This document shows, piece by piece, positions 8,429-47,043 of a stretch of 47,043 bases of DNA. The notes below the pieces were generated by a model. It worked only from the letters and a program-made list of their open reading frames with translations, had not been told where the DNA came from and did no database searches. The stretch spans positions 1 to 47,043 of the IMG/VR virus record IMGVR_UViG_3300048015_000339; one strand, given 5' to 3'. This DNA comes from a virus. How positions within the stretch are numbered: the first letter of the stretch is position 1; the number at the start of each line of letters is the position of its first letter. The position numbers and the translations under genes were made by a program.

Positions 8429-10333
8429 CTAGAAGATGTTGGTAATTGCAAGGTGAGTTGTGTCGATAGCAACGCCGACCTTCCTCGTGTTCGTGCCCGG
8501 AGTGCTGCCGATAGTACCGTTGGTGTCGTTGAGATAGTACTCCTGTAGAGGTTTGAGGCCCGAGAAGCCGCCCAGTATGCCGGATGAAGCAACAATAGTG
8601 TTCGACCCCGGCGTTGACTGAGCCCCGTTGGCGAAGCCGATGAACGCAACTGAACGATATTTAGAATTGGAGTAGTATCCGGTAACGGATGGATTGGCTG
8701 AATTTGCATTTACTATAGCGTAGGTTGGTGCAGTTGCCGGTGCAAAGGATATTAAATCTAGGTTATAGTAATCAGTCCCCCCGAATGTCATGGTGGCTGT
8801 GAATGCTGAAATGGGATTTATGACTCCGCTGTCACCTACTGCTCCGTCACCAATAGAACCAGAGGTATTGAAACTTCCTAATGATACTGCCGAAGGAGTG
8901 CCTTGCGCTTGTCCCACAGCAAGCACGACACATCCTGCGACTGTGGGTGTTAAAGATAGCGAAGCACTATTTGCATTTCCATAGACCGTGTTTGAGTTAT
9001 CAGGGAAACCTGACTGTGACACTCCATAGTAAGAAGTTACTTGTGCCGCATAGCCAGCACTCGAGTAATTGTAGACTATATTTTGAGATCCCGTAGCGGG
9101 TGCGTAGAGATACCAAATAGAATAACCGAGGTTGGTGAAAGTTGATCTGGATACCAATTTCGTCATTCCAACCCCATTTACGGTTATGGAGGTTGGGTCT
9201 GCTCCAACACCATTTCTCATAACCGTAATGATGAGTAGACGGTTTGCGTTATTCCCTATGGTTACCGCTTGAGTGTGAGAAGTACCACCGAAACCACTGG
9301 TAACAGTAGTTGCAAAATCTGTCTGTATGCCACCATCGCTCTGATACCATCCTGCGGCGAGCGCCGCGCGGTCAGCCACTGCCTCTCCCACAGCAAGCGA
9401 TAGGCCAGTAAACGGGGTATTGAGGTTGGTGATATTGGAGCCGTCACCGTAGAGGTATCGCCATGGGAATGACGCACTGCCCAGGTCATAGCTCGAAGCT
9501 ACGGCCGGGAGCAGCGTGTCGGGTATCGCTGCGGGATTAAACTGCAACCCGAGTATCGGCCGCACGTCGCTTTGGATGTACCCCTCCCCGCTCTGCTGGT
9601 TGTCGAAGTCGTAGAGCGCCGTTTCACCTGTCACGTTGTACAGCTCGCACAGGGGCATCTTGCCGGCAGGATAGGTCGGGACGGCAGGGCTGGCGTTCTC
9701 GGCGCCTGTCGTCCATGCCAGCGTGCCCGTGTTGTCCACGGTGAGCACGTCGATGCGGGGATGAGAGCTTGGGGCCGTGACGGTTGGGGTCACTCCGCCA
9801 GCGAAAAGCACCCGCGTTCCATTGACGTATACGGTGCCCTTGTGGACGTACAGCGCCATGGTGTTTGCCGTCCAGCTTCCGCTGGTGACGGTCGTGGATA
9901 CCGAGAGGCTCGTGAGAGGAGCATAGAGGCTGGTGTTGCTGCTGGCGAGGTAGAGGGATGTTCCGCCTGCAGGAAGGTAGAAGGACAGGTAGCCGACGAG
10001 GAGCTGGTTGGCGGCGGACAATGCCACGCCGTTGGCGGTGGTGGTTTGCGGCTGGTTGAGCAAGGCGAGGACGTTTGCAACAAAGCCCGCCGCGGTTCCT
10101 GGATTGAGCACGTCGCCGGGCGTGGTGCCAATCGTGCCGACGGCCGTGAGCACGACGTTCGTGCCATTAATATCGAAGGTTATCGTCTGGCCGTTTGTGG
10201 GCGCGGTTCCCAAAGCCAGGATGCCTTGCATCTGCTGAACAAGAAGCGAAGCGGCCCCACGCGCGTCGGCCCGAAGGTTGGTGATGTTTTGGGCCAGAAT
10301 GTTCTCGGCTGGAATGACGGATAGGCTACGCAT
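8429..10333 (-). CDS. tail fibre / receptor-binding protein
   Basis: The product has 634 residues. The first 260 or so residues are rich in Thr, Ser, Asn and Gly with repeated short strands, like tail-tip or fibre proteins. A phrase typical of trimeric fibres (YDLGSASFPWRYLYGDGSN) lies near residue 285. Residues about 330-540 form a separate module starting DFATTVTSGFGGTSHTQAV and ending DLISFAPATAP, whose DNA (about 8710-9320) is clearly AT-richer. The C-terminus (about 565-634, GLKPLQEYYLNDTNGTIGST) resembles a carbohydrate-binding-type repeat seen at the ends of fibres. It probably determines host binding. Confidence 0.7.
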   Translation of the reverse strand: MRSLSVIPAENILAQNITNLRADARGAASLLVQQMQGILALGTAPTNGQTITFDINGTNVVLTAVGTIGTTPGDVLNPGTAAGFVANVLALLNQPQTTTANGVALSAANQLLVGYLSFYLPAGGTSLYLASSNTSLYAPLTSLSVSTTVTSGSWTANTMALYVHKGTVYVNGTRVLFAGGVTPTVTAPSSHPRIDVLTVDNTGTLAWTTGAENASPAVPTYPAGKMPLCELYNVTGETALYDFDNQQSGEGYIQSDVRPILGLQFNPAAIPDTLLPAVASSYDLGSASFPWRYLYGDGSNITNLNTPFTGLSLAVGEAVADRAALAAGWYQSDGGIQTDFATTVTSGFGGTSHTQAVTIGNNANRLLIITVMRNGVGADPTSITVNGVGMTKLVSRSTFTNLGYSIWYLYAPATGSQNIVYNYSSAGYAAQVTSYYGVSQSGFPDNSNTVYGNANSASLSLTPTVAGCVVLAVGQAQGTPSAVSLGSFNTSGSIGDGAVGDSGVINPISAFTATMTFGGTDYYNLDLISFAPATAPTYAIVNANSANPSVTGYYSNSKYRSVAFIGFANGAQSTPGSNTIVASSGILGGFSGLKPLQEYYLNDTNGTIGSTPGTNTRKVGVAIDTTHLAITNIF

Positions 10334-31944: not shown

Positions 31945-32226
31945 ATGGAGCGGTTTCGGCGCTTCAATGCGTGGTCAAGACGCACGATGAATCGTTTCGC
32001 CTTAATCTGGGGCGTGTGCCTGTTTGGCACATTGTCCTCGATCCTACTTGTAGGTCGGATGGTGTGGGATGGAGTGCATCTCTCTCCCTCCGCTGTAGGT
32101 ATGATCGTCCTGCTGGCAATCCCCGCTAGCTACCTGTGGGGGACGGTAATGTGGTGGTATCTGTTTTTGGCTGAGAAAACGATGCGCGCGCTTCGCAATC
32201 GGCGGCAACAGCGTCGATCAGGTTAA
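31945..32226 (+). CDS. two-pass membrane protein, 93 aa
   Basis: The protein begins MERFRRFNAWSRRTMNRFAL. Two transmembrane helices (about residues 18-38, ALIWGVCLFGTLSSILLVG, and 50-75, AVGMIVLLAIPASYLWGTVM) are followed by a basic tail (RALRNRRQQRRSG). AGGAG lies a few bases before the ATG. It ends inside the last codons of the convergent ParB-like gene. Function unknown; the isolated plus-strand position suggests cargo. Confidence 0.6.
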   Translation: MERFRRFNAWSRRTMNRFALIWGVCLFGTLSSILLVGRMVWDGVHLSPSAVGMIVLLAIPASYLWGTVMWWYLFLAEKTMRALRNRRQQRRSG

Positions 32227-32718
32227 GACGGTACTGGTTACCGCATGTCCGGCACGTCTCTCATGCCCGTCTATGGCTTTCCGCAGCTCTTCACATCGGG
32301 AGCACTTGCCGTCCTCGGTAGGTGTTGCTTCTCCATGGTCGCCTTTGAGTAGGTCGGCGATGTCGATGCCGGGCGTGTCGAGTAGCTGGTCATCGAAGTT
32401 CACCAGCAAGTCGTAATCCCACTGGCCCTGGTGGATGTTGTCTTTGAGTGCCCAGCGCTGCTCCTGCTCTTCGGTGAGGTTGGCCAGGATGCAGGGGACG
32501 GTGGTGTAGCCGATATGCTGGCAGGCGCGGACGCGCATGTTGCCGGCGATGACCACGTTCTGCCCGGTGCGGGTGCTGACGATGACGGGCCGGGCTTTCA
32601 GTAGCTCCGGGTCGTCTTTGATGCTTTGGACCAGCCGCCCAAAGTCGTGCTCGCGGATCTTGCGAGGGTTCCATGAGGGAAGCTCAAGGGCGGAAATGTC
32701 TATCTCGACTGTTTCCAT
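32218..32718 (-). CDS. ParB/Srx-domain protein
   Basis: The product has 166 residues and begins METVEIDISALELPSWNPRK. It has the ParB/sulfiredoxin N-terminal fold: NPRKIREHDFGRLVQSIKDD, then ARPVIVSTRTGQNVVIAGNM with the GN.R motif and VRACQHIGYTTVPCI. The middle has TEEQEQRWALKDNIHQGQWD, typical of phage ParB-like proteins. The C-terminal tail holds a CSRCEELRKAIDGHE knuckle. Such proteins in phages may act in DNA modification, transcription or nuclease functions rather than partition. It is the last gene of a four-gene operon from 33662. Confidence 0.8.
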   Translation of the reverse strand: METVEIDISALELPSWNPRKIREHDFGRLVQSIKDDPELLKARPVIVSTRTGQNVVIAGNMRVRACQHIGYTTVPCILANLTEEQEQRWALKDNIHQGQWDYDLLVNFDDQLLDTPGIDIADLLKGDHGEATPTEDGKCSRCEELRKAIDGHERRAGHAVTSTVLT

Positions 32719-35753: not shown

Positions 35754-36473
35754 CTAGTGGACGGTCTCGCATACGCCGTCGATGACACGATGCAGCGTTG
35801 GGGTCGAGTTCGGATTGTCCATCACCCGGCCCGCGAGGGAGTGCGTGACGGCGTTGAACAGACGCCACGCGGTCGGCTCCTCCAGGTCGGGGAAGGACGG
35901 CTTTTCCCATTCCTTGAGCACGTCAGGCACCCGTTGGATGTTGATGACGCCCTGCCGGTAGAGGTCGAGGATGGCATGGTCGGCCTGGCTGTCGGTGAGC
36001 ATCACCTGCTTGTAATGCTGGAAGGTCTTTGCCTGGGCCTCCCGATGCAGGGCCAGCGGCTCGATCAGCTCCCCGACGATGCCGGGTAGATCCCGCTTGA
36101 GGTTGGCGGTGTGGCGGCGCTTGATGACGTGATCGGCGCTGAACGCCATGTTGTCGCAAACGAACACGCGCGAGCCGAAGCCAATCCCCACGGGGAAGCT
36201 CCGGTCATTGCTGTTGCGCAGGCCCACGGTGTCCTCGTAGCCCGTGTAGGCGCTGCGCAGGGACAGCAGGCCGAAGAAGCGGAGGCCGTCCTCGGTGACG
36301 CCGTAGTGCTCGTCCGTCACCTCGTGCCCGTACATGCCGAGCGTGCTCTTGAGCAGGTCCACTACCCGAAAGTGCGGGATGGGGACGTGGGTCGTGGTGG
36401 CAGCCGGCGTGTCGAGCTGGCGCAGTCCGTCATAGTCGATCGCCGAAGCGCCGACGTGAAGCATCAGAGTCAT
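35754..36473 (-). CDS. DUF932 phage/plasmid protein
   Basis: The product has 239 residues and begins MTLMLHVGASAIDYDGLRQL. The core (PIPHFRVVDLLKSTLGMYGH, VGLRNSNDRSFPVGIGFGSR and VFVCDNMAFSADHVIKRRHT) fits the DUF932 family widespread on phages and conjugative plasmids; its role is unknown. It is transcribed alone from TGG-TACGAT, has an AGGAGAG ribosome site, and ends at its own terminator, so it is an independent unit. A longer in-frame start upstream would cross this promoter. Confidence 0.8.
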   Translation of the reverse strand: MTLMLHVGASAIDYDGLRQLDTPAATTTHVPIPHFRVVDLLKSTLGMYGHEVTDEHYGVTEDGLRFFGLLSLRSAYTGYEDTVGLRNSNDRSFPVGIGFGSRVFVCDNMAFSADHVIKRRHTANLKRDLPGIVGELIEPLALHREAQAKTFQHYKQVMLTDSQADHAILDLYRQGVINIQRVPDVLKEWEKPSFPDLEEPTAWRLFNAVTHSLAGRVMDNPNSTPTLHRVIDGVCETVH

Positions 36474-36505
36474 GGGTAGCTCTCCTGTGAAAGAACAACC
36501 CACTA

Positions 36506-36514
36506 ATCGTACCA
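36506..36514 (-). promoter_or_regulatory. extended -10 promoter TGG-TACGAT (32-base leader class)
   Basis: The minus strand reads TGGTACGAT, about 32 bases before the ATG at 36473, with AGGAGAG between. It is identical to the boxes at 683 and 40415. Confidence 0.55.
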
Positions 36515-36582
36515 TGCGCGAGTTGAGTAATCCTGAGCAAGAATGTTGAAGCGACATCGGAATGGTGTGCCGAGTAAGGTTG

Positions 36583-36598
36583 CCTCCTCCATAGGAGG
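36583..36598 (+). promoter_or_regulatory. hairpin hiding the ribosome site
   Basis: CCTCCT-CCAT-AGGAGG is a perfect six-base stem with a four-base loop. The right arm is the AGGAGG ribosome site five bases before the ATG at 36604. In the mRNA it could block translation until opened. Confidence 0.4.
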
Positions 36599-36603
36599 TC
36601 AGC

Positions 36604-37197
36604 ATGACACTCAAAATCAAAACAATCCGCGGTCGAGGATACTACTACAACGACGTGTCCAAGCGCGTCGGCGGCAAGGTGAAGACGACCAGTTCCTACG
36701 TCGGCCCGGTCAATCCGAAGCGGAAGCGCATCGGCGTCGGCACCATCCTCGCTAATCTGCTCATCGGCTCTGCCGCCTTTGGTGGCATGGCGGCGATGGG
36801 CCGGCTCAAGACGCGGCACTACACGGACAGGCCCTACACCAATCAGCGTGCCAAGTCGTTGGCGAATAAGGCGCTGCGCGAGCTGTATGCCAAATACCAG
36901 ATGGACGACACCCATCCCGACAAGTTCCAGGCCAGCTTCGACCGGCTGCCCCAAGAGATGAAGGATGAGGTGCTGGCGGGGCGCAAGGCGGTATTCGACC
37001 GGCACCAAGCCTCGCAGCCGCGCGTCAAGGAAGTGCCGACTACCAAGCAGATGACACCCGACATGAAGGAGTTTGCAGACCGGCTGACGGCGCACCGTGC
37101 CAAACAAGCCGCCCGTGCTGCTGCACCCTCGGCACCTGCTGGCCCACAAGCTGAGGCGGTTGCTGCGCCGGATGAGGGCGATGAAGGAACGAGCTAG
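36604..37197 (+). CDS. hypothetical basic protein, 197 aa
   Basis: The protein begins MTLKIKTIRGRGYYYNDVSK. The opening RGRGYYYNDVSKRVGGKVKT resembles the N-terminal segment of phage and plasmid proteins of the type xxxYYLVxSKRVGGKVR. A weakly hydrophobic patch (TILANLLIGSAAFGGMAAMG, about 45-65) may be a membrane helix. The C-terminal 60 residues are Ala/Pro/Gln-rich and disordered. AGGAGG lies at optimal distance from the ATG, but inside a hairpin. Function unknown. Confidence 0.65.
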   Translation: MTLKIKTIRGRGYYYNDVSKRVGGKVKTTSSYVGPVNPKRKRIGVGTILANLLIGSAAFGGMAAMGRLKTRHYTDRPYTNQRAKSLANKALRELYAKYQMDDTHPDKFQASFDRLPQEMKDEVLAGRKAVFDRHQASQPRVKEVPTTKQMTPDMKEFADRLTAHRAKQAARAAAPSAPAGPQAEAVAAPDEGDEGTS

Positions 37198-38073: not shown

Positions 38074-38283
38074 TTAGGCCATCGCCTTGGCTAGTTTGGT
38101 AATGCGTGCCTCCGAACCGACCAATCGAACCTTCACTGAGATTTCCTTCGGCCGTCTGCGAGCTTCCTTCTGCGCCAGCTTGCCCGCCCGTTGAAACGCA
38201 GTGCCGAACGATGACGCTTTGATGTTCCGGTCTGAGAAGATGTGGCCCCAATCGCACGTTGCGGAAGCGATGTAGTGGTTCAT
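38074..38283 (-). CDS. hypothetical protein, 69 aa
   Basis: The protein begins MNHYIASATCDWGHIFSDRN. It has a basic helix (QRAGKLAQKEARRRPKEISV) and a C-terminal strand/helix (VRLVGSEARITKLAKAMA). It overlaps the stop of the preceding DUF3560 gene by four bases and belongs to the same operon. No family recognised. Confidence 0.6.
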   Translation of the reverse strand: MNHYIASATCDWGHIFSDRNIKASSFGTAFQRAGKLAQKEARRRPKEISVKVRLVGSEARITKLAKAMA

Positions 38284-38984
38284 AAAGTGGCCAAAATCTG
38301 ATAAGCGCGGTCAATCGCAAACCTGGCATTAACGGCATTCCGCACCCACGCGCCGCGCGATGGCGACCAAAGGAATCCGTATGAGCGGAGAGATTTGCAA
38401 ATCTCCGAAGACGGTCGCGAATTGAATTTGATGACAATGCGGTTGTCGCTTTTGTCCTCGTGCATCGTCCATCCGTTGCCGCTCTTCGGCTGCATCGTTT
38501 CGGCCCCGCGTGCTTGTTCAAGGCCAGCGATACGCTCCTTGATGCGGCGGACGTTCGCACCACTGTTGGTGAGCTGATAGGTCGCATATGGCTTCTCTTG
38601 GCCATTCGCCCTGGCTTCACGGTTGCTCTCAACCATGTGCGCATGCGCTTCTTCGAGCTTGAGCAGCTTATCCTCCAGCTTCCGTACTGCTTCGGGGTCG
38701 TCCGAAGATATGCCGCCTGAGCCTACGCCGTCCGCGCGTGCTTCGAGGTTATCAGCCTGCTTGGAAAGCTCGACCGATTTATCAATTTTGCCAACCGCTC
38801 GGCCACGATATGCCCGGTCGCTGCGTTCGCTGTGATGTCCTACAAGGATTGGCTGCCCGAAAGGGATTTGTGAAAGAGCGTCCCATCCGTCTTTTGAAAG
38901 CTTCTCCGCTGCGGCGCGGCGCTTGGCCGCCGCCGCTTTGAGTCGCTCGCGCTTGGCTTCCTGCTTTTCTTCGTACGAATTCAT
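38280..38984 (-). CDS. DUF3560 phage/plasmid protein
   Basis: The product has 234 residues and begins MNSYEEKQEAKRERLKAAAA. The opening Y.EKQEAKRERLK, followed by IPFGQPILVGHHSERSDRAY with the conserved HHSE, is the hallmark of DUF3560. A long coiled coil follows (about 90-150), and the C-terminus carries a small domain (NRIVIKFNSRPSSEICKSLR; GFLWSPSRGAWVR) common in plasmid and phage proteins. Function unknown; it is found on conjugative elements and large phages. Confidence 0.8.
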   Translation of the reverse strand: MNSYEEKQEAKRERLKAAAAKRRAAAEKLSKDGWDALSQIPFGQPILVGHHSERSDRAYRGRAVGKIDKSVELSKQADNLEARADGVGSGGISSDDPEAVRKLEDKLLKLEEAHAHMVESNREARANGQEKPYATYQLTNSGANVRRIKERIAGLEQARGAETMQPKSGNGWTMHEDKSDNRIVIKFNSRPSSEICKSLRSYGFLWSPSRGAWVRNAVNARFAIDRAYQILATL

Positions 38985-39606: not shown

Positions 39607-40380
39607 TCAGAATTCGATGGTGAGTTTCTTCTCCTCGACCAGAGCCTTGAGGCAGGTGAGCGCGTCTCCGTCCGTAGGCGCGAGCGGACAAATGACGTTC
39701 GTGCAGCCGTGCTCGCTGGCACGCATCACGTCCAACACGTCGGACACTATCCGCACGCTCTCGCCCTCTGCGAGCCGGTGAGTGCCGAACCAATACGGCA
39801 GCGGCACGTCCTTTGGCATGAGGTAGTGCGGCACATCGCCGCCCAGCGATACGCCGATGAAGGCTTTGACGGTGCCGGTAACGTCGTGCCACGCCACGGC
39901 CAGCCGTCCTCGGTTAAGACCCTTCGACGCATACCCAGCCTGGAACTCAATGAGAGTCTCCGGTTGGAGGTCCAAGTCCTTCAACGCATCGTGCCCGGCG
40001 TCGAGGGTCTTCAAGTAGGCGAGCGGGTCAAACCCAGCCGCCTTGCGCTCCTGCGGGCCTTCTGAGGCTGCGGGAGCGTTGTCGGCGGGTTTGCCCGCAC
40101 CATTGAGGCCGAAGTGCTGGGCGAGCTGCTGGCCCGCCTGGCTCTCTGGTATCCGCTTGAAGCGGGCAACCAGGTCGATGACCGAGCCGCCGCGCTTCTC
40201 CGAGAAGCAGTAGAAGATGTTGCGGGCGGGCGTGACGACGAAGGCGCGGTTGTTCCCCTCCTTACAGATTGGGCAGAAGCCGCGGAGCGTCTCGCCGTGG
40301 GGTGTGAGGCCCGTGATGCCAAGCATCTCGATCACCTGGGCGATGGTCACTTGCTGCTTAATCGATTGGAAGTCGGCCAT
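39607..40380 (-). CDS. CHC2-type DNA primase-like protein
   Basis: The product has 257 residues and begins MADFQSIKQQVTIAQVIEML. The zinc finger is GFCPICKEGNNRAFVV, then NIFYCFSEKRGGSVIDLVAR: three Cys ligands are clear, while the fourth (normally in CFGC) is replaced (CFSE). A middle region (YLKTLDAGHDALKDLDLQPE) precedes a Toprim-N-like part with GRLAVAWHDVTGTVKAFIGV and PHYLMPKD. It lacks the full catalytic core and helicase-binding domain of DnaG, so it is a short plasmid/phage form. AGAGGAG and a TGG-TACGAT promoter lie upstream. Confidence 0.75.
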   Translation of the reverse strand: MADFQSIKQQVTIAQVIEMLGITGLTPHGETLRGFCPICKEGNNRAFVVTPARNIFYCFSEKRGGSVIDLVARFKRIPESQAGQQLAQHFGLNGAGKPADNAPAASEGPQERKAAGFDPLAYLKTLDAGHDALKDLDLQPETLIEFQAGYASKGLNRGRLAVAWHDVTGTVKAFIGVSLGGDVPHYLMPKDVPLPYWFGTHRLAEGESVRIVSDVLDVMRASEHGCTNVICPLAPTDGDALTCLKALVEEKKLTIEF

Positions 40381-40426: not shown

Positions 40427-41380
40427 CTACGGCTGGCTGATGTCGATGTCCGGGTGTCCCGCGCGGCGCCACGGCGTCGTCAACAGTTCCGACAAGACGG
40501 GCGGGACGATGAGCTTGTCCGCGAAGTTCGGAACAACCTTGAACAGCATGTAGGGGAGGCCGCGGCCGTTGGTGAGTTTCATCACGAGGGCGATGATGCT
40601 CTCCATGTGCGCGTAGCTGGTGGTGATAGTGAGCACCAGCATGCCGCCCCTCAATCCGAAGTGCTCTTTGTAGCGGCCCGTCTCGATGAGCTGGCGGTAT
40701 TGGAGGATCTTCCGCAGGTAGGATGTCTGGTCGAGGTTATTGCGCACGACCGGCTCATTCTCCCGATCAGCCTCAAGGAGAAAGGCGCGGGCTTTGCCAT
40801 TGCCATACCGGATGCCGAAATAGGCGTCGGAAATAAGCGGGGTCTGCGACGTGTGGCCGTTGTGCGAGATGGTCAGCGGCACTTTCAGGTCGCCGCCTCG
40901 CGCACGGGTCAACAGCCACTCGCCCGTGTCGAACGTCAGGCCCGCGTCTTTGCACGCCAGCTCGATTGAGGCCGTGAGGCACGCCTCCATGAAGCGGTGG
41001 TGGTAGTTGGTCTTCTTGCTCGGGAAGGACGTGTGCGCGATGAGGCCGCGCTCTTTGAGCAGCAGCTCCGCCGCCGCGTCGCACTCATACACGGCGTCCT
41101 GGTATTTCGTGATGACGCTGTTCTGCTGCGGGGGACGTTCAAGGTAAGCTCCGCCGTGCGGCGTGTTGTCCTCATGGTAGAGGTCTTTCAACCGCTGCTT
41201 CACGGTATCCAGCGACGGCGTGGTGTCCTTCGTGAAGGCGTAGAGGTAGCCGGTCGGGAGCGGCCCATGCTGCCAGAGTTTCTGGAACCACACGATCTCT
41301 CGCGCACCTGGAGTGACGCGGATGCCGGATGGCTGGCGGAAATAGCGCGCGCGGCGCTTCGGTTTGACAAGTGCGTCCAT
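40427..41380 (-). CDS. replication-relaxation family protein
   Basis: The product has 317 residues and begins MDALVKPKRRARYFRQPSGI. Two winged-helix-like segments are visible: the N-terminal one (ARYFRQPSGIRVTPGAREIV; PLPTGYLYAFTKDTTPSLDT) and a core with HRFMEACLTASIELACKDAG. The later phrases AYFGIRYGNGKARAFLLEAD and RENEPVVRNNLDQTSYLRKI are typical of the Replic_Relax family (YF.LEaD.GT...R...S...K...Y), found next to TraG/VirD4-like ATPase genes on mobile elements. The protein probably acts at the element's origin. It starts six bases after a TACCAT box; the longer frame would cross it. Confidence 0.75.
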   Translation of the reverse strand: MDALVKPKRRARYFRQPSGIRVTPGAREIVWFQKLWQHGPLPTGYLYAFTKDTTPSLDTVKQRLKDLYHEDNTPHGGAYLERPPQQNSVITKYQDAVYECDAAAELLLKERGLIAHTSFPSKKTNYHHRFMEACLTASIELACKDAGLTFDTGEWLLTRARGGDLKVPLTISHNGHTSQTPLISDAYFGIRYGNGKARAFLLEADRENEPVVRNNLDQTSYLRKILQYRQLIETGRYKEHFGLRGGMLVLTITTSYAHMESIIALVMKLTNGRGLPYMLFKVVPNFADKLIVPPVLSELLTTPWRRAGHPDIDISQP

Positions 41381-41386
41381 GCACCA

Positions 41387-41392
41387 ATGGTA
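41387..41392 (-). promoter_or_regulatory. leaderless -10 box TACCAT
   Basis: The minus strand reads CTG-TACCAT, TGGTGC, then the ATG at 41380. The spacing matches the other leaderless boxes. Confidence 0.4.
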
Positions 41393-41445
41393 CAGCACTA
41401 CGGGGCATGTCATATAGGAAGCGGAATGAGTAGCTGTGAGTAACG

Positions 41446-43800
41446 CTAGTAGCCGTCGTCAGGTAAATCCCGAGTTGGCGGCCTGGGGCGCTTGGGACCC
41501 GGCAACCCCGGCCGATTCGGTAGCTCCTCAGCCTTACCGTCTATGGTCGTGCCTTCAAAATCATCCTCGGCTTTTCGCGGCGGAGGGTCTTTCGTCATCT
41601 CTGCGCGATTGAACATGCGCATGCGGCCGTAGTCGTGCTCGTCCATCGACTTCCGCTTGTCGAGCGCCCCAAAAGGGATTTGAAGGGATACGGCGCGACG
41701 CAACCCCCGCGCATAGCAAGCGAAGCGTCCAAATTCGGGACGGTCTCCAGCGGGCTTTTCGTGTTCCATGATGAACTCTGGATCGGTTCGCATGTCGCTC
41801 GCGAATGCTTTGGCATCGGATGCTGATACCGTGCTCATCATTTTAATGGCCGTGTTCGACTGGATGGTATGCACAAACGAGCCCATCTGCGGCACATCCT
41901 GAAACGCAAGCATGGCACCCAGCCCATAGGAGCGAAGCGTAGTAAGCAGTTCCTCCAATTTCTCATCTACATAGGGAGCGCACTCGTCGATATAGATGCG
42001 TGCTGGTTTCACCGACCCTTCGACCATCCTACCCCGATCAAGGGCAGCACTGATAACGCGGGAGATGAAATAGCGAGCGAACATCGGGGAAAGTTGTGGG
42101 CCGAGGAAAGCACGCTCCGCCGAGACAAGAATGATCTTCCCGGCATTGAGAGCTTTCGCGATATCAAGTGCATTGCCACGGGCGCTAAACATGCGGCTCA
42201 AGGTGCGGCGCTGGATGACCTGTTGTATGCGGCGCTTGAGTTCATTCTTCGTCTCTGCGTAATGCCCCCGAGGCCGTAAGAAGTCATCGCTGAGAAGGAA
42301 GTCGCGTGCCTCGGGGGCTAGCTTCTTGACCCACTTCGTAAATGGTGTGAGGTCGGTGAGGGCTTCCTCAAACGTAGCGAGCGTTGCTTCGGGGATGTGG
42401 CACATAAGCTCCACAAGCGGTATAAAAATCACGCTCTGCTTTCCGGTGATGTCGGATCCCAACAGGCTCCCCAAGAAGTATTCCAGACTGGAAACAACGT
42501 CGTTCACTGCCTGGTCGTCTGATGTCGAGATATCGACGTCAAACATGTTGAGGTGGGGCCGCTCTCTCGGATCGATGATGACCAATCGATCGCGCAGGCG
42601 CCCATGATCAGGGTGGAATACGTCCAATCGGGCAATGCGCTGCAAGAGGTCTCGTGGACCAGCCTTGCTGTCTATCACGACCATGCCAGGCGGATCATCC
42701 CGGTCAAGGTCGGCAAGGATGAGATTTTCAAGTGTCTGGCTTTTACCGCCATCGCTGCCTGCAACGATAACGCCGTGCGCAGCGCGATGAACCTCTGAGA
42801 AGCCCCACGACACGCGAGCAGTGAACAGGTCGTGGAACTTGGTGCTTTTCCAATATGCTTGGGCCAGCTCGGTTGAAGTGGCGGCACGGTAAGCGCCCGG
42901 TTGAACACGCTGCCCTGCGTCTAACTCTTTTTGCGATAGGCTTCTTTTTGAAGCGCCTTCACGATTGAGGTCGAAGACCTTGCGAAATGTATCTCCAAGG
43001 TGTACTGCTTTGCAGTCGTCGTCATAGAGACGGTCCGACACTGTACACATATCTTCCGCAGGGTCGGGCAGTATCTCAGCCATCGGTAGCTCAAACGGGC
43101 CTCCGACGCGTCCTTTGAGCTGATCGGCTAGGAACGTTAATCCCTCGGCGACCACGTTACCCGCGAGTTCCGCTCGCGCCCTATCTGAGCCGACGCTCGT
43201 CAGTGCCTCGTCCATCCGGGTGCGAAGACGAGCGTAAAAGTCTAATCGGTGGCGGATATCAAAGCCTGTGTATTCCGGGAAGGGTACCTCTGTTCTGTCC
43301 TGTTGATAGATCTCAACAAGGAGGTCTAACCCGATGCGCACTGCATCAGCACCAAGGAGCACACCGTGTCCGGACCTACCGCTTTTGTAGGCAGCAATTA
43401 TCTGCGGATGGCTCCTACCAATCTGCTGTAGAACCGACCCGCCTATGGTCTCACGCACCGCTTCAGGCGGAATCCTCGTTGCTGAACGATATACGGCTTT
43501 TCGACTCTCATATTCGTTTTTGAACTCGATGCCATACCAAGGCACGTACTTGTAGAGGATGTATCCGGTGACCGAGCTGGCGATCAATCCCCAAACGGGA
43601 TTGATTAAAAGGGAGAAAAACACGAGCCAAGCAACCGATGCCGCAAACACCCAAAGAAGCACGTCTTTATTCCAATGCATCACCTCATGTCCGTTTTTCA
43701 GGACGGGCGCCCAAAACAGAATCGGCATAAAAACGTAGGTGCCAGGCAGTGCGAATAGCAGGAAGAACGCGGTGAACATACCGGATGCGGTATCGGGCAC
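41446..43800 (-). CDS. type IV coupling-protein-like ATPase (VirD4/TraG family)
   Basis: The product has 784 residues. Two or three N-terminal membrane segments (about 8-30, 46-88) are followed by a soluble ATPase domain. Walker A is GSDGGKSQ (348-355), followed by PPGMVVIDSKAGPRDLLQRI and RLVIIDPRERPHLNMFDVD. Walker B is RIYIDECAPYVDE, and LGAMLAFQDVPQMGSF is the conserved post-Walker segment of coupling proteins. The C-terminus is Pro/Arg-rich and disordered. Such ATPases move DNA through a membrane during conjugation. No other type IV secretion gene is visible, so it may rely on host machinery. It starts at GTG 43800; ATG 43779 is an alternative. Confidence 0.85.
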   Translation of the reverse strand: MPDTASGMFTAFFLLFALPGTYVFMPILFWAPVLKNGHEVMHWNKDVLLWVFAASVAWLVFFSLLINPVWGLIASSVTGYILYKYVPWYGIEFKNEYESRKAVYRSATRIPPEAVRETIGGSVLQQIGRSHPQIIAAYKSGRSGHGVLLGADAVRIGLDLLVEIYQQDRTEVPFPEYTGFDIRHRLDFYARLRTRMDEALTSVGSDRARAELAGNVVAEGLTFLADQLKGRVGGPFELPMAEILPDPAEDMCTVSDRLYDDDCKAVHLGDTFRKVFDLNREGASKRSLSQKELDAGQRVQPGAYRAATSTELAQAYWKSTKFHDLFTARVSWGFSEVHRAAHGVIVAGSDGGKSQTLENLILADLDRDDPPGMVVIDSKAGPRDLLQRIARLDVFHPDHGRLRDRLVIIDPRERPHLNMFDVDISTSDDQAVNDVVSSLEYFLGSLLGSDITGKQSVIFIPLVELMCHIPEATLATFEEALTDLTPFTKWVKKLAPEARDFLLSDDFLRPRGHYAETKNELKRRIQQVIQRRTLSRMFSARGNALDIAKALNAGKIILVSAERAFLGPQLSPMFARYFISRVISAALDRGRMVEGSVKPARIYIDECAPYVDEKLEELLTTLRSYGLGAMLAFQDVPQMGSFVHTIQSNTAIKMMSTVSASDAKAFASDMRTDPEFIMEHEKPAGDRPEFGRFACYARGLRRAVSLQIPFGALDKRKSMDEHDYGRMRMFNRAEMTKDPPPRKAEDDFEGTTIDGKAEELPNRPGLPGPKRPRPPTRDLPDDGY

Positions 43801-43988: not shown

Positions 43989-44765
43989 CTAGACGCTCTG
44001 GTGTCTCATCGCCGCCTCGATGAACTCGTTGTAGGCGTTGTCCTCCCGGAGCGGGTCCGGGTAGAGGCCGGCGTGCTTCGCAAGGAGTACGGCATCATCG
44101 TGGAGTGCTCCCGCGATGACCTTGTCCTTTACCAATAGGACACTCCGGCGCAGGTTCTCCGGCAGCTCATCGAGGAACCGGACGCCTGCTACAAGGCGGT
44201 TCTCCCGTATCAAGGACACGTGGGCGTCTCGGCCATAAAAGCCAAAGTCAGGGACAACCACCTGTCCTTTATACTGCACCATCAGGAACAGTCCGATGGC
44301 GAGCGCATCGAAGTCGCCCAGCTCGGCGCGGTTCACCCTCGCCAGGATGGTCGAGCGCGGGTTGAAGGAGAAATTGGTCGGGGTGCAGAGCATCCGCCGC
44401 AGGACGGGTGAGCGCATCAGACGCCGGACCTTGCCGTACGCCCAGACCTGACCCGTGGAGGATTGCCGGTCGGGGACGGGTATAAGGCTGGCCAGGGAGG
44501 CTGGCGCCTGGTCCAGCGCCTCGGCTATGAAATCCAGGCCGGTGTCTTTCGTGAGAGTACCGTCACCTCGCGAAAAGAGGGCGTCGAAGATCTCGACCAG
44601 CTCGTTCGCGCCCCGGTAGGTGAGCTGTTGGAGCGGGTTGAATGAGTGAACTGTGGGGTCGAACACCCGCGCCCGTGGGATGTCCGGCACCTCGTCGTGT
44701 ATGAACAAGTAGCCGCCTTTCGGCGGCGCAATTGGTGTCGTGCCTATATATATGCGGTTGGTCAT
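43989..44765 (-). CDS. hypothetical protein linked to coupling ATPase, 258 aa
   Basis: The protein begins MTNRIYIGTTPIAPPKGGYL. Phrases such as ARVFDPTVHSFNPLQQLTYR and ELVEIFDALFSRGDGTLTKD echo the segment after Walker A in coupling ATPases (..DP...FNPL......A.E......LF), but no intact P-loop is present, so it may be a degenerate relative or partner of the neighbouring ATPase. The C-terminal half (FLDELPENLRRSVLLVKDKV) looks folded. Unrecognised as a family. It lies downstream of a possible TACAAT box at 44855-44860, with a leader of about 89 bases. Confidence 0.65.
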   Translation of the reverse strand: MTNRIYIGTTPIAPPKGGYLFIHDEVPDIPRARVFDPTVHSFNPLQQLTYRGANELVEIFDALFSRGDGTLTKDTGLDFIAEALDQAPASLASLIPVPDRQSSTGQVWAYGKVRRLMRSPVLRRMLCTPTNFSFNPRSTILARVNRAELGDFDALAIGLFLMVQYKGQVVVPDFGFYGRDAHVSLIRENRLVAGVRFLDELPENLRRSVLLVKDKVIAGALHDDAVLLAKHAGLYPDPLREDNAYNEFIEAAMRHQSV

Positions 44766-44873
44766 GGGCGAGCGGGCTGCGGGAGGTAGAGCCCGTGTGG
44801 TAGCAGGATGCCTACGGTGCCCACTCGCCGCGAAACGAAGAACCGTCCTCGGTCATTGTAACTCGTGAAACGC

Positions 44874-44949: not shown

Positions 44950-45407
44950 CGGGGCGGAGGCGGCGCGAGCAATCAGGGCGGGCGAGAACTGTGAACCGTC
45001 CCCGCCAACGGTTCGTCGTGGAAGCGAAGCGCCCCGACCCAAATGACGTACCCCGAAGCATCGGGAGGCAGCCCCCCTGTAAGGTTACCTTCAGGGGGTG
45101 CGCCCGCCTCGTGCGAGGGGGGTGATGGTATTCAAGGACACGAACGATAGTGAGTGGAGGAGATAGACAACACAGACATTTGGGTCGGGGCGTTAGCCGC
45201 GCGAACCGTTGTGCGGGAAGTGTCTGATATTATTGCGTTTCATCGCGAAAATTACGTCCACGCAGAGAGACATACTGGGTGTAACTCCGTATGTGGCCCT
45301 GCATGGCGTTTTCGTGGGCATCGTAGACTATCGGACAGGGTGAGGCCCTAGGCTCCCCGCCCTGTCGCACCTGGCCGCTAAGTCTTCATACGCTCGGCGG
45401 CCTTTTG
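44950..45407 (+). ncRNA. candidate large structured RNA (or structured origin)
   Basis: This gene-free stretch folds into nested helices. 45030-45045 pairs perfectly over 16 bases with 45177-45192; 45006-45015 pairs with 45202-45211 (10 bases); 45001-45005 with 45213-45217; 44964-44973 pairs with 45232-45247 around one bulge. Local hairpins fill the middle (45052-45065, 45073-45098, 45107-45118). A second arm runs from 45254 to 45309 with four paired segments, and a third pairs 45334-45340 with 45360-45366. A terminator hairpin with TTTT ends the region. TTGTATAAC at 44935-44943 is a possible promoter on this strand. The exact ends and the strand are uncertain. Confidence 0.55.
45373..45406 (+). 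terminator. probable terminator of the structured region
   Basis: GGCCGC (45373-45378) pairs with GCGGCC (45397-45402) around an 18-base loop, followed by TTTT. Confidence 0.6.
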
Positions 45408-45455
45408 CGTGGGCGGTCAATTGTCAACCGACTTTGCGGTAGTTGTAAACAATGC

Positions 45456-45513: not shown

Positions 45514-45753
45514 TTAGGAGTCAGTAGGCGGCGGCTTGAGCGCCCGGCGAGAGCGGTTATTGGCCCAATCGACCATCTCGTGTCGCAGGAAGAGCAACGC
45601 ACCACGGTTGGTCTCCGAGAAACCAATTGGTTTCGGAAAGTCCGGCCGTTGGCGGTAGCGATCAATTTGCGGGCGCGACCGTCGAAGGAATCCCTTAACC
45701 TCCTCCATAGTCATGTAAACGCTCTGTAGGTCGTCCATCACGAACAGCTCCAT
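45514..45753 (-). CDS. AlpA/excisionase-like DNA-binding protein
   Basis: The product has 79 residues and begins MELFVMDDLQSVYMTMEEVK. The segment MTMEEVKGFLRRSRPQIDRY, then PDFPKPIGFSETNRGALLFL and RHEMVDWANNRSR, is the winged-helix layout of AlpA/excisionase proteins (strand, helix, YR....FP.P, then W). Such proteins direct integrase toward excision or regulate it. It is encoded just downstream of the integrase on the same strand, in the usual recombination module. Starts at 45753, 45738 or 45714 are possible; none has a clear ribosome site. Confidence 0.75.
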   Translation of the reverse strand: MELFVMDDLQSVYMTMEEVKGFLRRSRPQIDRYRQRPDFPKPIGFSETNRGALLFLRHEMVDWANNRSRRALKPPPTDS

Positions 45754-45864
45754 GTGTTGGAACCGTCCGGACGGCGTCGGCGTCCAGCGGGATCGCCGGA
45801 CTGCGAGAAGGTTAAGGCTGAGCAACGGCGAGGGTCAATTACTCTTCCTTGCTCATAGTGCCTC

Positions 45865-47043
45865 TCATACCCATTCAGGTTCGCCGAACTCGATCGCCAT
45901 CTCGGTGTCAGCCTCATCGACGATGGTGCGCTGGAACCACTCCTCGAACTTCTCGACTGCATCGCGCATCTCGTCCGCGTAGTGATGGCGCTGGTAGACG
46001 CCGACTATCCCCGCGCGCGTGCCGCTGACATGGTTGAGCAGCGCCTCGATGACTTCGAGCCGGATACCAAGCCGCTGTAGGTTGGTGGCGTAGGTGCGGC
46101 GTAAGTCGTGGAGTGTCCAATCGGTTCCGGTGCCGGGCGCAAGCTCGATGACCTTCGCTTTTAGTTGCGCGGTAGATTTGGACCAACCGTTGAAGATCTG
46201 GTTGGGCTTACCCCTCGCGGGGAACAAACTCGTGGTCGCCTTGGTAATGTTCGACCGGAGTATAGCCGCACACCGCGCACTGATAGGGAAGGTGTGCGCG
46301 CGGCGGTTCTTGGTTAGCTCTTTTGGAAGGCATATGGAATTATCGGTGATGTAGGCCGCCTGCAACGCGGTGATTTCCCCGCGCCGCTGGCCGGTGAGTG
46401 CGAGCAGCTTCACGATAGCACCGAAGTGGCCGCCAACTGCGTCTGTAGCCTCCCACAAGGTGGATAACTCGGCGTCGGACAGGACGCGCTCCCGAGGTAT
46501 CCATGTGGATGGGAGTTCCAAACCCTCGATCGGCGAGTGCTGGAGTAGTCGGCGACGGACGCACCACCGGAAGAAAGTCTTGCAGTATCGATGAAGGTGC
46601 TCCCCTTCCGAGGGGGAGATCTTGTCGGTGACGTTCGTGATGTGGTGTGCGGTGATGTCCGCTAGCTTCTTGGCGTTGAGGTGCGTGAGGCGCTTGGTGA
46701 AGAGCCGTTCAATCTCCTTTTTGGAACGCGGAGCCAGCTTGGCGAGGTGCTTCTCGCCATACAATTGCAGCGCAGCTCCGAAGGCGATCTTGGGCGTCTG
46801 ATTACGTCCTACGGCCCGCTCCGCCTTTATCAGCCCGGCGATCTTCCGTGCTTCCGCCAGGGCCATGATGGGGTAACGGCCGATCGTCACACGGTCCCTG
46901 GACTTGCCGGCCGATAGGACGAAGGACTTGGCACCGGCCTGGGATACGCGGACGCCGAACCCCTTGAGGGTGTCGTCCACATAGACCCTTACACCTACCT
47001 CGGGGGCCTTCAGCGCGCGCACGCTCGTTTCGGTGAGTCGCAT
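45865..47043 (-). CDS. int: tyrosine recombinase (P4-type integrase)
   Basis: The product has 392 residues and begins MRLTETSVRALKAPEVGVRV. Residues 1-75 are the DUF4102/Arm-binding N-terminal domain (YVDDTLKGFGVRVSQAG). The core-binding domain is about 85-180. The catalytic domain has Arg in TGQRRGEI, the H-x-x-R pair in LHDLRRTYATNL and the nucleophile Tyr in VGVYQRHHYADEM. All key residues are present, so it should be active in site-specific integration. The ATG coincides with the last base of the window, so the promoter and attachment site, usually just upstream, are not included. Confidence 0.92.
   Translation of the reverse strand: MRLTETSVRALKAPEVGVRVYVDDTLKGFGVRVSQAGAKSFVLSAGKSRDRVTIGRYPIMALAEARKIAGLIKAERAVGRNQTPKIAFGAALQLYGEKHLAKLAPRSKKEIERLFTKRLTHLNAKKLADITAHHITNVTDKISPSEGEHLHRYCKTFFRWCVRRRLLQHSPIEGLELPSTWIPRERVLSDAELSTLWEATDAVGGHFGAIVKLLALTGQRRGEITALQAAYITDNSICLPKELTKNRRAHTFPISARCAAILRSNITKATTSLFPARGKPNQIFNGWSKSTAQLKAKVIELAPGTGTDWTLHDLRRTYATNLQRLGIRLEVIEALLNHVSGTRAGIVGVYQRHHYADEMRDAVEKFEEWFQRTIVDEADTEMAIEFGEPEWV

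Follow-up and report, generated by a model that had tools for sequence, protein, structure and literature searches.

What is the role of the structured DNA that lies beside a set of mobility genes in the genome of a phage? The genome, which is called the window here, comes from IMG/VR and comprises 47,043 bases. An earlier note on its sequence had singled out positions 44950 - 45407 as a region without a convincing gene, and had left the choice between a large non-coding RNA and a structured origin, either an oriT or a replication origin. No protein family accounts for this region. Sequence comparisons indicate that positions 45001 - 45217 probably constitute an oriT, a nick origin of the MOBC type that would be cut on the + strand near 45183/45184; the probability of this reading is put at about 0.83.

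The genes on both sides of the element are encoded on the - strand. On one side are a tyrosine integrase (45865 - 47043; PF00589 and PF13356) and an excisionase or AlpA-like regulator (45514 - 45825; weak matches to PHROG 66 and 4745). On the other side are ORF258 (43989 - 44765), a TraG/VirD4-type coupling ATPase that would be the counterpart of MobB (41446 - 43800; PF12696, TraG-D_C), a Replic_Relax protein that would be the MOBC-type relaxase and counterpart of MobC (40427 - 41413; PF13814), and a primase-like protein with a CHC2 zinc finger (39607 - 40380; PF01807 and the PHROG DNA primase family). The coupling ATPase has a P-loop, AGSDGGKS, and a hydrophobic N-terminus. PF13814 is the MobC relaxase family (PMC5357655). 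The site between the coupling ATPase and replication-relaxation genes and the integrase, as given in the earlier note, is borne out by these Pfam and PHROG gene calls; more precisely, the element is positioned between the excisionase-like gene and ORF258. Terminase, portal, head protease, major head protein, tail and endolysin genes are found elsewhere in the window. The terminase, portal, head and tail genes, taken with the integrase, identify the window as a temperate tailed phage. A DUF3560 protein is encoded near the primase (38280 - 38984), and ParB_N (32218 - 32718) and DUF932 (35754 - 36620) proteins are encoded further along the window. A protein with a SLATT_5 domain (PF18160; 34962 - 35648), a defence-associated membrane effector domain, is prophage cargo.

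The core of the structure extends from about 45001 to 45217 on the + strand and contains two helices, one inside the other. The outer helix is formed in the DNA fold of 44980 - 45235 by a 5' arm, CCCGCCAACGGTTCG plus CGTG (45001 - 45020), and a 3' arm, CGAACCGTTGTGCGGG (45202 - 45217). The inner helix is a perfect inverted repeat of 16 bp, composed of CGCCCCGACC plus the variable CAAATG (45030 - 45045) and of CATTTGGGTCGGGGCG (45177 - 45192). Both this repeat and the 10 bp centre of the outer helix, in which 45006 - 45015 pairs with 45202 - 45211, are present exactly as first described, and the two arms match one another in blastn with an E-value of 4.7e-4. The left junction between the helices (45021 - 45032) may contain a small hairpin, GCG-AA-GCGC; an asymmetric segment is found at the equivalent place in relatives of the element and in the plasmid CloDF13 (TTCGC-CATA-GCGA). 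The inner helix encloses a loop domain of 131 nt (45046 - 45176), which has hairpins of its own (e.g. 45070 - 45102) and a length that varies among relatives. Directly 3' of the proposed nick is a local hairpin, GGC-GTTA-GCC (45189 - 45198), which reads GGC-GTGA-GCC in many relatives and in CloDF13. RNAfold, which the earlier note had proposed for both strands, gave z-scores of -6.56 (+) and -6.17 (-) for 44950 - 45420 relative to dinucleotide shuffles, and none of 100 shuffles reached the fold energy of either strand. The separate arm at 45254 - 45309 of the earlier note is outside the 45001 - 45217 core. A CATAC..GTATG hairpin on the 3' side of the nic strand (45240 - 45320 in the window) was ruled out as a conserved companion of the core because a comparable one occurs in only 5 of 28 records, the window included.

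The region did not match any sequence when used as a DNA query against phage and plasmid collections, nor did scans of viral contigs with a single integrase query and a single coupling-protein query find a match. Relatives of ORF258 are present in 11 host-genome contigs, mostly of Hyphomicrobiales and also of Sphingomonadaceae, and in 22 viral contigs. An inverted-repeat search around CGAC/GTCG located the element in 28 records, counting the window. All of them have an ORF258 relative, and they comprise alphaproteobacterial prophages and IMG/VR phages. The element is in front of ORF258 in 18 records and about 2 kb behind it, inverted relative to ORF258, in 10. The gene order element-ORF258-T4CP-MobC is found in 15 loci, including the window, and a MobC profile detects the relaxase in most of the remaining records. 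Where the element is in front (18 loci), ORF258 is antisense to the nic strand, and so are the T4CP and MobC genes wherever these were found. MobC was also found in seven records that have the element behind ORF258, and there the locus orientation, combined with the relaxase position, places the nic strand antisense to MobC again. This orientation relative to the relaxase gene holds for all records checked, including those with an inverted ORF258, and in CloDF13 too the nic strand is antisense to the mob genes.

The helices covary massively across these relatives, which is how the check for compensatory changes suggested in the earlier note turned out. The inner arm is hypervariable, with 23 distinct 9-mers in 26 loci. 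When the arms were swapped between loci, the Watson-Crick fraction of the inner arm was 0.90 with its own partner versus 0.355 with arms from other loci; the anchor on the core of the window was displaced by a few bases, and this makes the own-arm figure lower, not higher. The outer helix, which had played no part in finding the loci, scored 13.3 with its own arms and 8.1 with foreign ones. A scan for a single arm was added because the first search itself used complementarity. Two patterns, run against 2.9 million viral contigs, gave 84 hits. Ten of them fall in contigs that belong to this phage family (L045, L050, L055, L071, L100, L105, L109, L116, L123 and L124), and all ten have a partner that is complementary at 12 - 14 of 14 positions, whereas the other 74 reach at most 11 of 14, the chance level. 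L116 and L123 are counted as members of the family on the ground that L039 and L022 come from their contigs, although no module gene was detected in the fetched stretches.

The nic motif of CloDF13, which we take to be GGGTGGTCGGG, occurs exactly once in this plasmid, at 9752 - 9762. It sits within nested repeats, an outer one of 14 bp (9650 - 9783) and an inner one (9685 - 9759), and the DNA fold is of the same design as that of the phage element. The commonest nic arm of the phages, GTCGTGGCGTGAGCCCGACGG, aligns to GTCGGGCGTGAGCCTGACGG of CloDF13 (9756 - 9776) with a score of 16, which is the best match in the whole plasmid; the best score on the other strand is 10, and 30 random copies gave 13 at most. 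An ungapped motif scan of CloDF13 missed the nic, because CloDF13 has one base fewer there, and gapped alignment found it. The nic core GTCGGG of the window is located in GGGTCGGGGC at 45182 - 45191, inside the 16 bp repeat, and the CloDF13 alignment predicts the nic between 45183 and 45184 (CATTTGG/GTCGGGGC).

The likeness to CloDF13 is not confined to the nic. In both, the origin is upstream, followed by the coupling ATPase and then the relaxase, the order in the window being element-ORF258-TraG-Replic_Relax; both have nested long-range repeats and a near-identical arm, GGTCG-GGCGTGAGCC-GACGG. Unlike CloDF13, the phage versions add the gene of a P-loop-less ATPase and a primase, have loops of about 50 - 250 nt, one extra base after GTCG and hypervariable inner arms, and sit among virion genes. 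A profile of the phage MobC proteins gave no match to MobC of the CloDF13 group, so the link between the two is their shared Pfam family. A Citrobacter plasmid that MOB-suite assigns to MOBC shares its Pfam pair with the window, PF12696 for the coupling ATPase and PF13814 for the relaxase, with a CloDF13-type arm upstream of the coupling-protein gene. This plasmid, from Citrobacter koseri, has lost the inner domain of its CloDF13-type origin, of which a simple hairpin, GTCAGGCGTGAGCCTGAC, remains (L044:3960-4044). A Sulfitobacter plasmid classed as non-mobilizable by MOB-suite (L041:6482-9867) encodes a protein related to the phage relaxase (31% identity) beside a T4CP; no comparable inverted-repeat origin was found in the scanned stretch upstream of this T4CP. 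Of the two options in the earlier note, the structured origin is therefore the one favoured by the co-occurrence with a relaxase, the oriT-mobB-mobC order, the fixed orientation of the arms and the match to the CloDF13 nic region.

The AlphaFold2 model of the relaxase (40427 - 41413) has a pLDDT of 82. Its Foldseek matches, to restriction-endonuclease-like and winged-helix structures, are of low confidence; the best are FokI (E-value 6e-3, probability 0.72) and 2okf (probability 0.84), both with low TM-scores. His139, Asp196 and Glu214 are invariant. MOBC relaxases have been described as having a restriction-endonuclease-like fold (PMC11389934). The model of ORF258 has a pLDDT of 95 and resembles TrwB, Cag-beta and VirB4 (Foldseek probability 1.00). 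The P-loop is absent from every member of the ORF258 family scanned, and this protein, with its coupling-protein-like ATPase fold, looks like a second, catalytically dead coupling-protein paralogue. In a crude hydropathy scan, no more than about half of the coupling ATPases had clear N-terminal membrane helices. A hairpin, GCGGCGA..GGCTCTA..TCGCC-ATG, immediately precedes the start codon of ORF258, at 44766 - 44850 on the - strand. Its stem shows, by eye, apparent compensatory changes in three relatives (L004, L005 and L006), and the hairpin has the look of a regulatory leader in the mRNA of the mob operon.

The element can be pictured as a DNA site in which two nested long-range inverted repeats around the 131 nt loop would be recognised by the Replic_Relax relaxase, the helices serving this recognition as either double- or single-stranded DNA. 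The relaxase would nick the + strand in the inner 3' arm, between 45183 and 45184 by analogy with CloDF13. Displacement of the + strand, which is the strand opposite the mob genes, would run 5' to 3' in the direction of the excisionase and integrase genes, and the mob genes would come last. Delivery of the complex to a type IV secretion channel, which another element would provide, would be the task of the coupling ATPase, perhaps together with the P-loop-less ORF258. Synthesis of the complementary strand would be restarted by the primase. The fast-changing inner arm may give each phage its own specificity. What the comparisons show is the structure, its conservation and covariation, its co-occurrence and fixed orientation with the relaxase, and its likeness to the CloDF13 oriT; nicking, the nick position, specificity and transfer are what we infer.

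The site may be used for mobilisation, for replication of the phage, or for both. VirB4, the mating-pair ATPase that a self-transmissible element would have of its own, was found in none of the 23 phage records searched, and transfer would therefore need a helper. DnaB-type helicase was likewise found in none of the 23, and a CHC2 primase is present in 21 of them, including the window. The same nick could be the phage's own replication origin, at which the relaxase starts rolling-circle replication of the excised phage, with the primase making the second strand and the coupling-type ATPases acting as DNA motors, while conjugation is secondary or plays no part. Besides the counts, this possibility agrees with the scans of window proteins, which brought up no further replication initiator, and relaxases are known to initiate replication of a rolling-circle-like kind in the course of transfer (PMC5704250). 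The absence of DnaB counts for little, however, because many phages of this size use host helicases. The records may be incomplete. Two coupling-protein-type ATPases have been retained beside the origin, as expected for transfer through a secretion channel, and a MobC relaxase is likewise encoded by the few mobilizable plasmids for which a VirD4 of their own is known (PMC5704250). For the reason that both ATPases are kept, mobilisation appears somewhat more likely than replication. The replication origin is nevertheless a real possibility, at rather less than even odds, and it takes its share from within the probability of the nick origin, with which it does not compete.

The strong fold energy and the extensive compensatory changes would also be explained by a large structured non-coding RNA, read from either strand. 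A transcript of the region may exist; a small RNA encoded beside the oriT of Salmonella Genomic Island 1 (SGI1) is needed for transfer of that element (PMC9299015). The base pairs themselves argue otherwise. Among about 1380 paired positions, read in the orientation of the mob genes, 1226 are Watson-Crick, 27 are G-T, 51 are A-C and 76 are other mispairs, so that wobble pairs amount to 2 - 4% on either strand. A conserved RNA helix as variable as this one would be expected to hold more G-U pairs. The scarcity of G-T wobbles on both strands therefore favours a DNA structure. Read on the nic strand, the mispairs are 51 G-T versus 27 A-C, a slight wobble bias that speaks for an RNA and also allows for folding of that strand when it is single. 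A pattern scan of the + strand found neither a promoter nor a terminator in the region, and none at 45406, where a terminator had been claimed; on the - strand it found one promoter-like and three terminator-like sites. No Rfam family matches the region at the gathering or a relaxed threshold, in keeping with the earlier failure to match it to a known RNA, and the closest sequence relative is the nick site of a plasmid. The non-coding RNA is thus unsupported and improbable. Still less probable is a recombination or partition site placed by the integrase, attP-like or with ParB-type repeats: integrase and excisionase genes are nearby and the window encodes a ParB_N protein, but in the ten relatives with the element about 2 kb downstream of ORF258 no integrase was found in the fetched stretch and the orientation to the relaxase stays fixed, and the arms change fast, unlike an att core.

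The nick origin of the phages also has counterparts outside CloDF13. By their published description, the MOBC oriTs of pMET1, pCRY and HPI-ECOR31 resemble it in the order oriT-mobB-mobC and in having nic in an inverted repeat; the order is reported for CloDF13, pMET1 and HPI-ECOR31, and the position of nic for the latter two (PMC2262945). These are, however, enterobacterial plasmids and islands with type IV secretion genes. The class 8 streptococcal integrative mobilizable elements share an integrase, MobC (PF13814) and a VirD4 coupling protein with the window, but they have a serine integrase and Gram-positive hosts and are described as mobilizable elements rather than phages (PMC5357655). 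The oriT of SGI1 is, as published, GC-rich, contains several inverted repeats and is mobilised by a helper (PMC6414798), but its relaxase is unrelated and of the tyrosine-recombinase type.

An oriT of the MOBC type was already known; what is unexpected here is its host, a phage with terminase, portal, capsid and tail genes. P1-like phage-plasmids are nearly always without oriT and relaxase (PMC10879196), and no paper on relaxase-bearing phages with portal and terminase was found in the open literature. As far as that literature was searched, the new features are the phage setting, the primase and the additional, dead-looking ATPase, the length of the loops, and an inner arm that is hypervariable and co-evolves. 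It is tentatively suggested, as an idea that may well prove wrong, that temperate phages of a widespread alphaproteobacterial lineage have taken over a MOBC relaxase, coupling ATPases and an oriT of plasmid type to process their own DNA, a system in which the nick starts replication and conjugation with a helper adds to the spread by virions. Throughout a family of integrating phages the mobilisation kit is kept complete, with an origin that evolves fast, and the 28 natural variants with covarying arms are a data set on origin recognition by MOBC relaxases. If the kit is functional, these viruses would have two ways of passing between cells, or else would use a plasmid relaxase to replicate.
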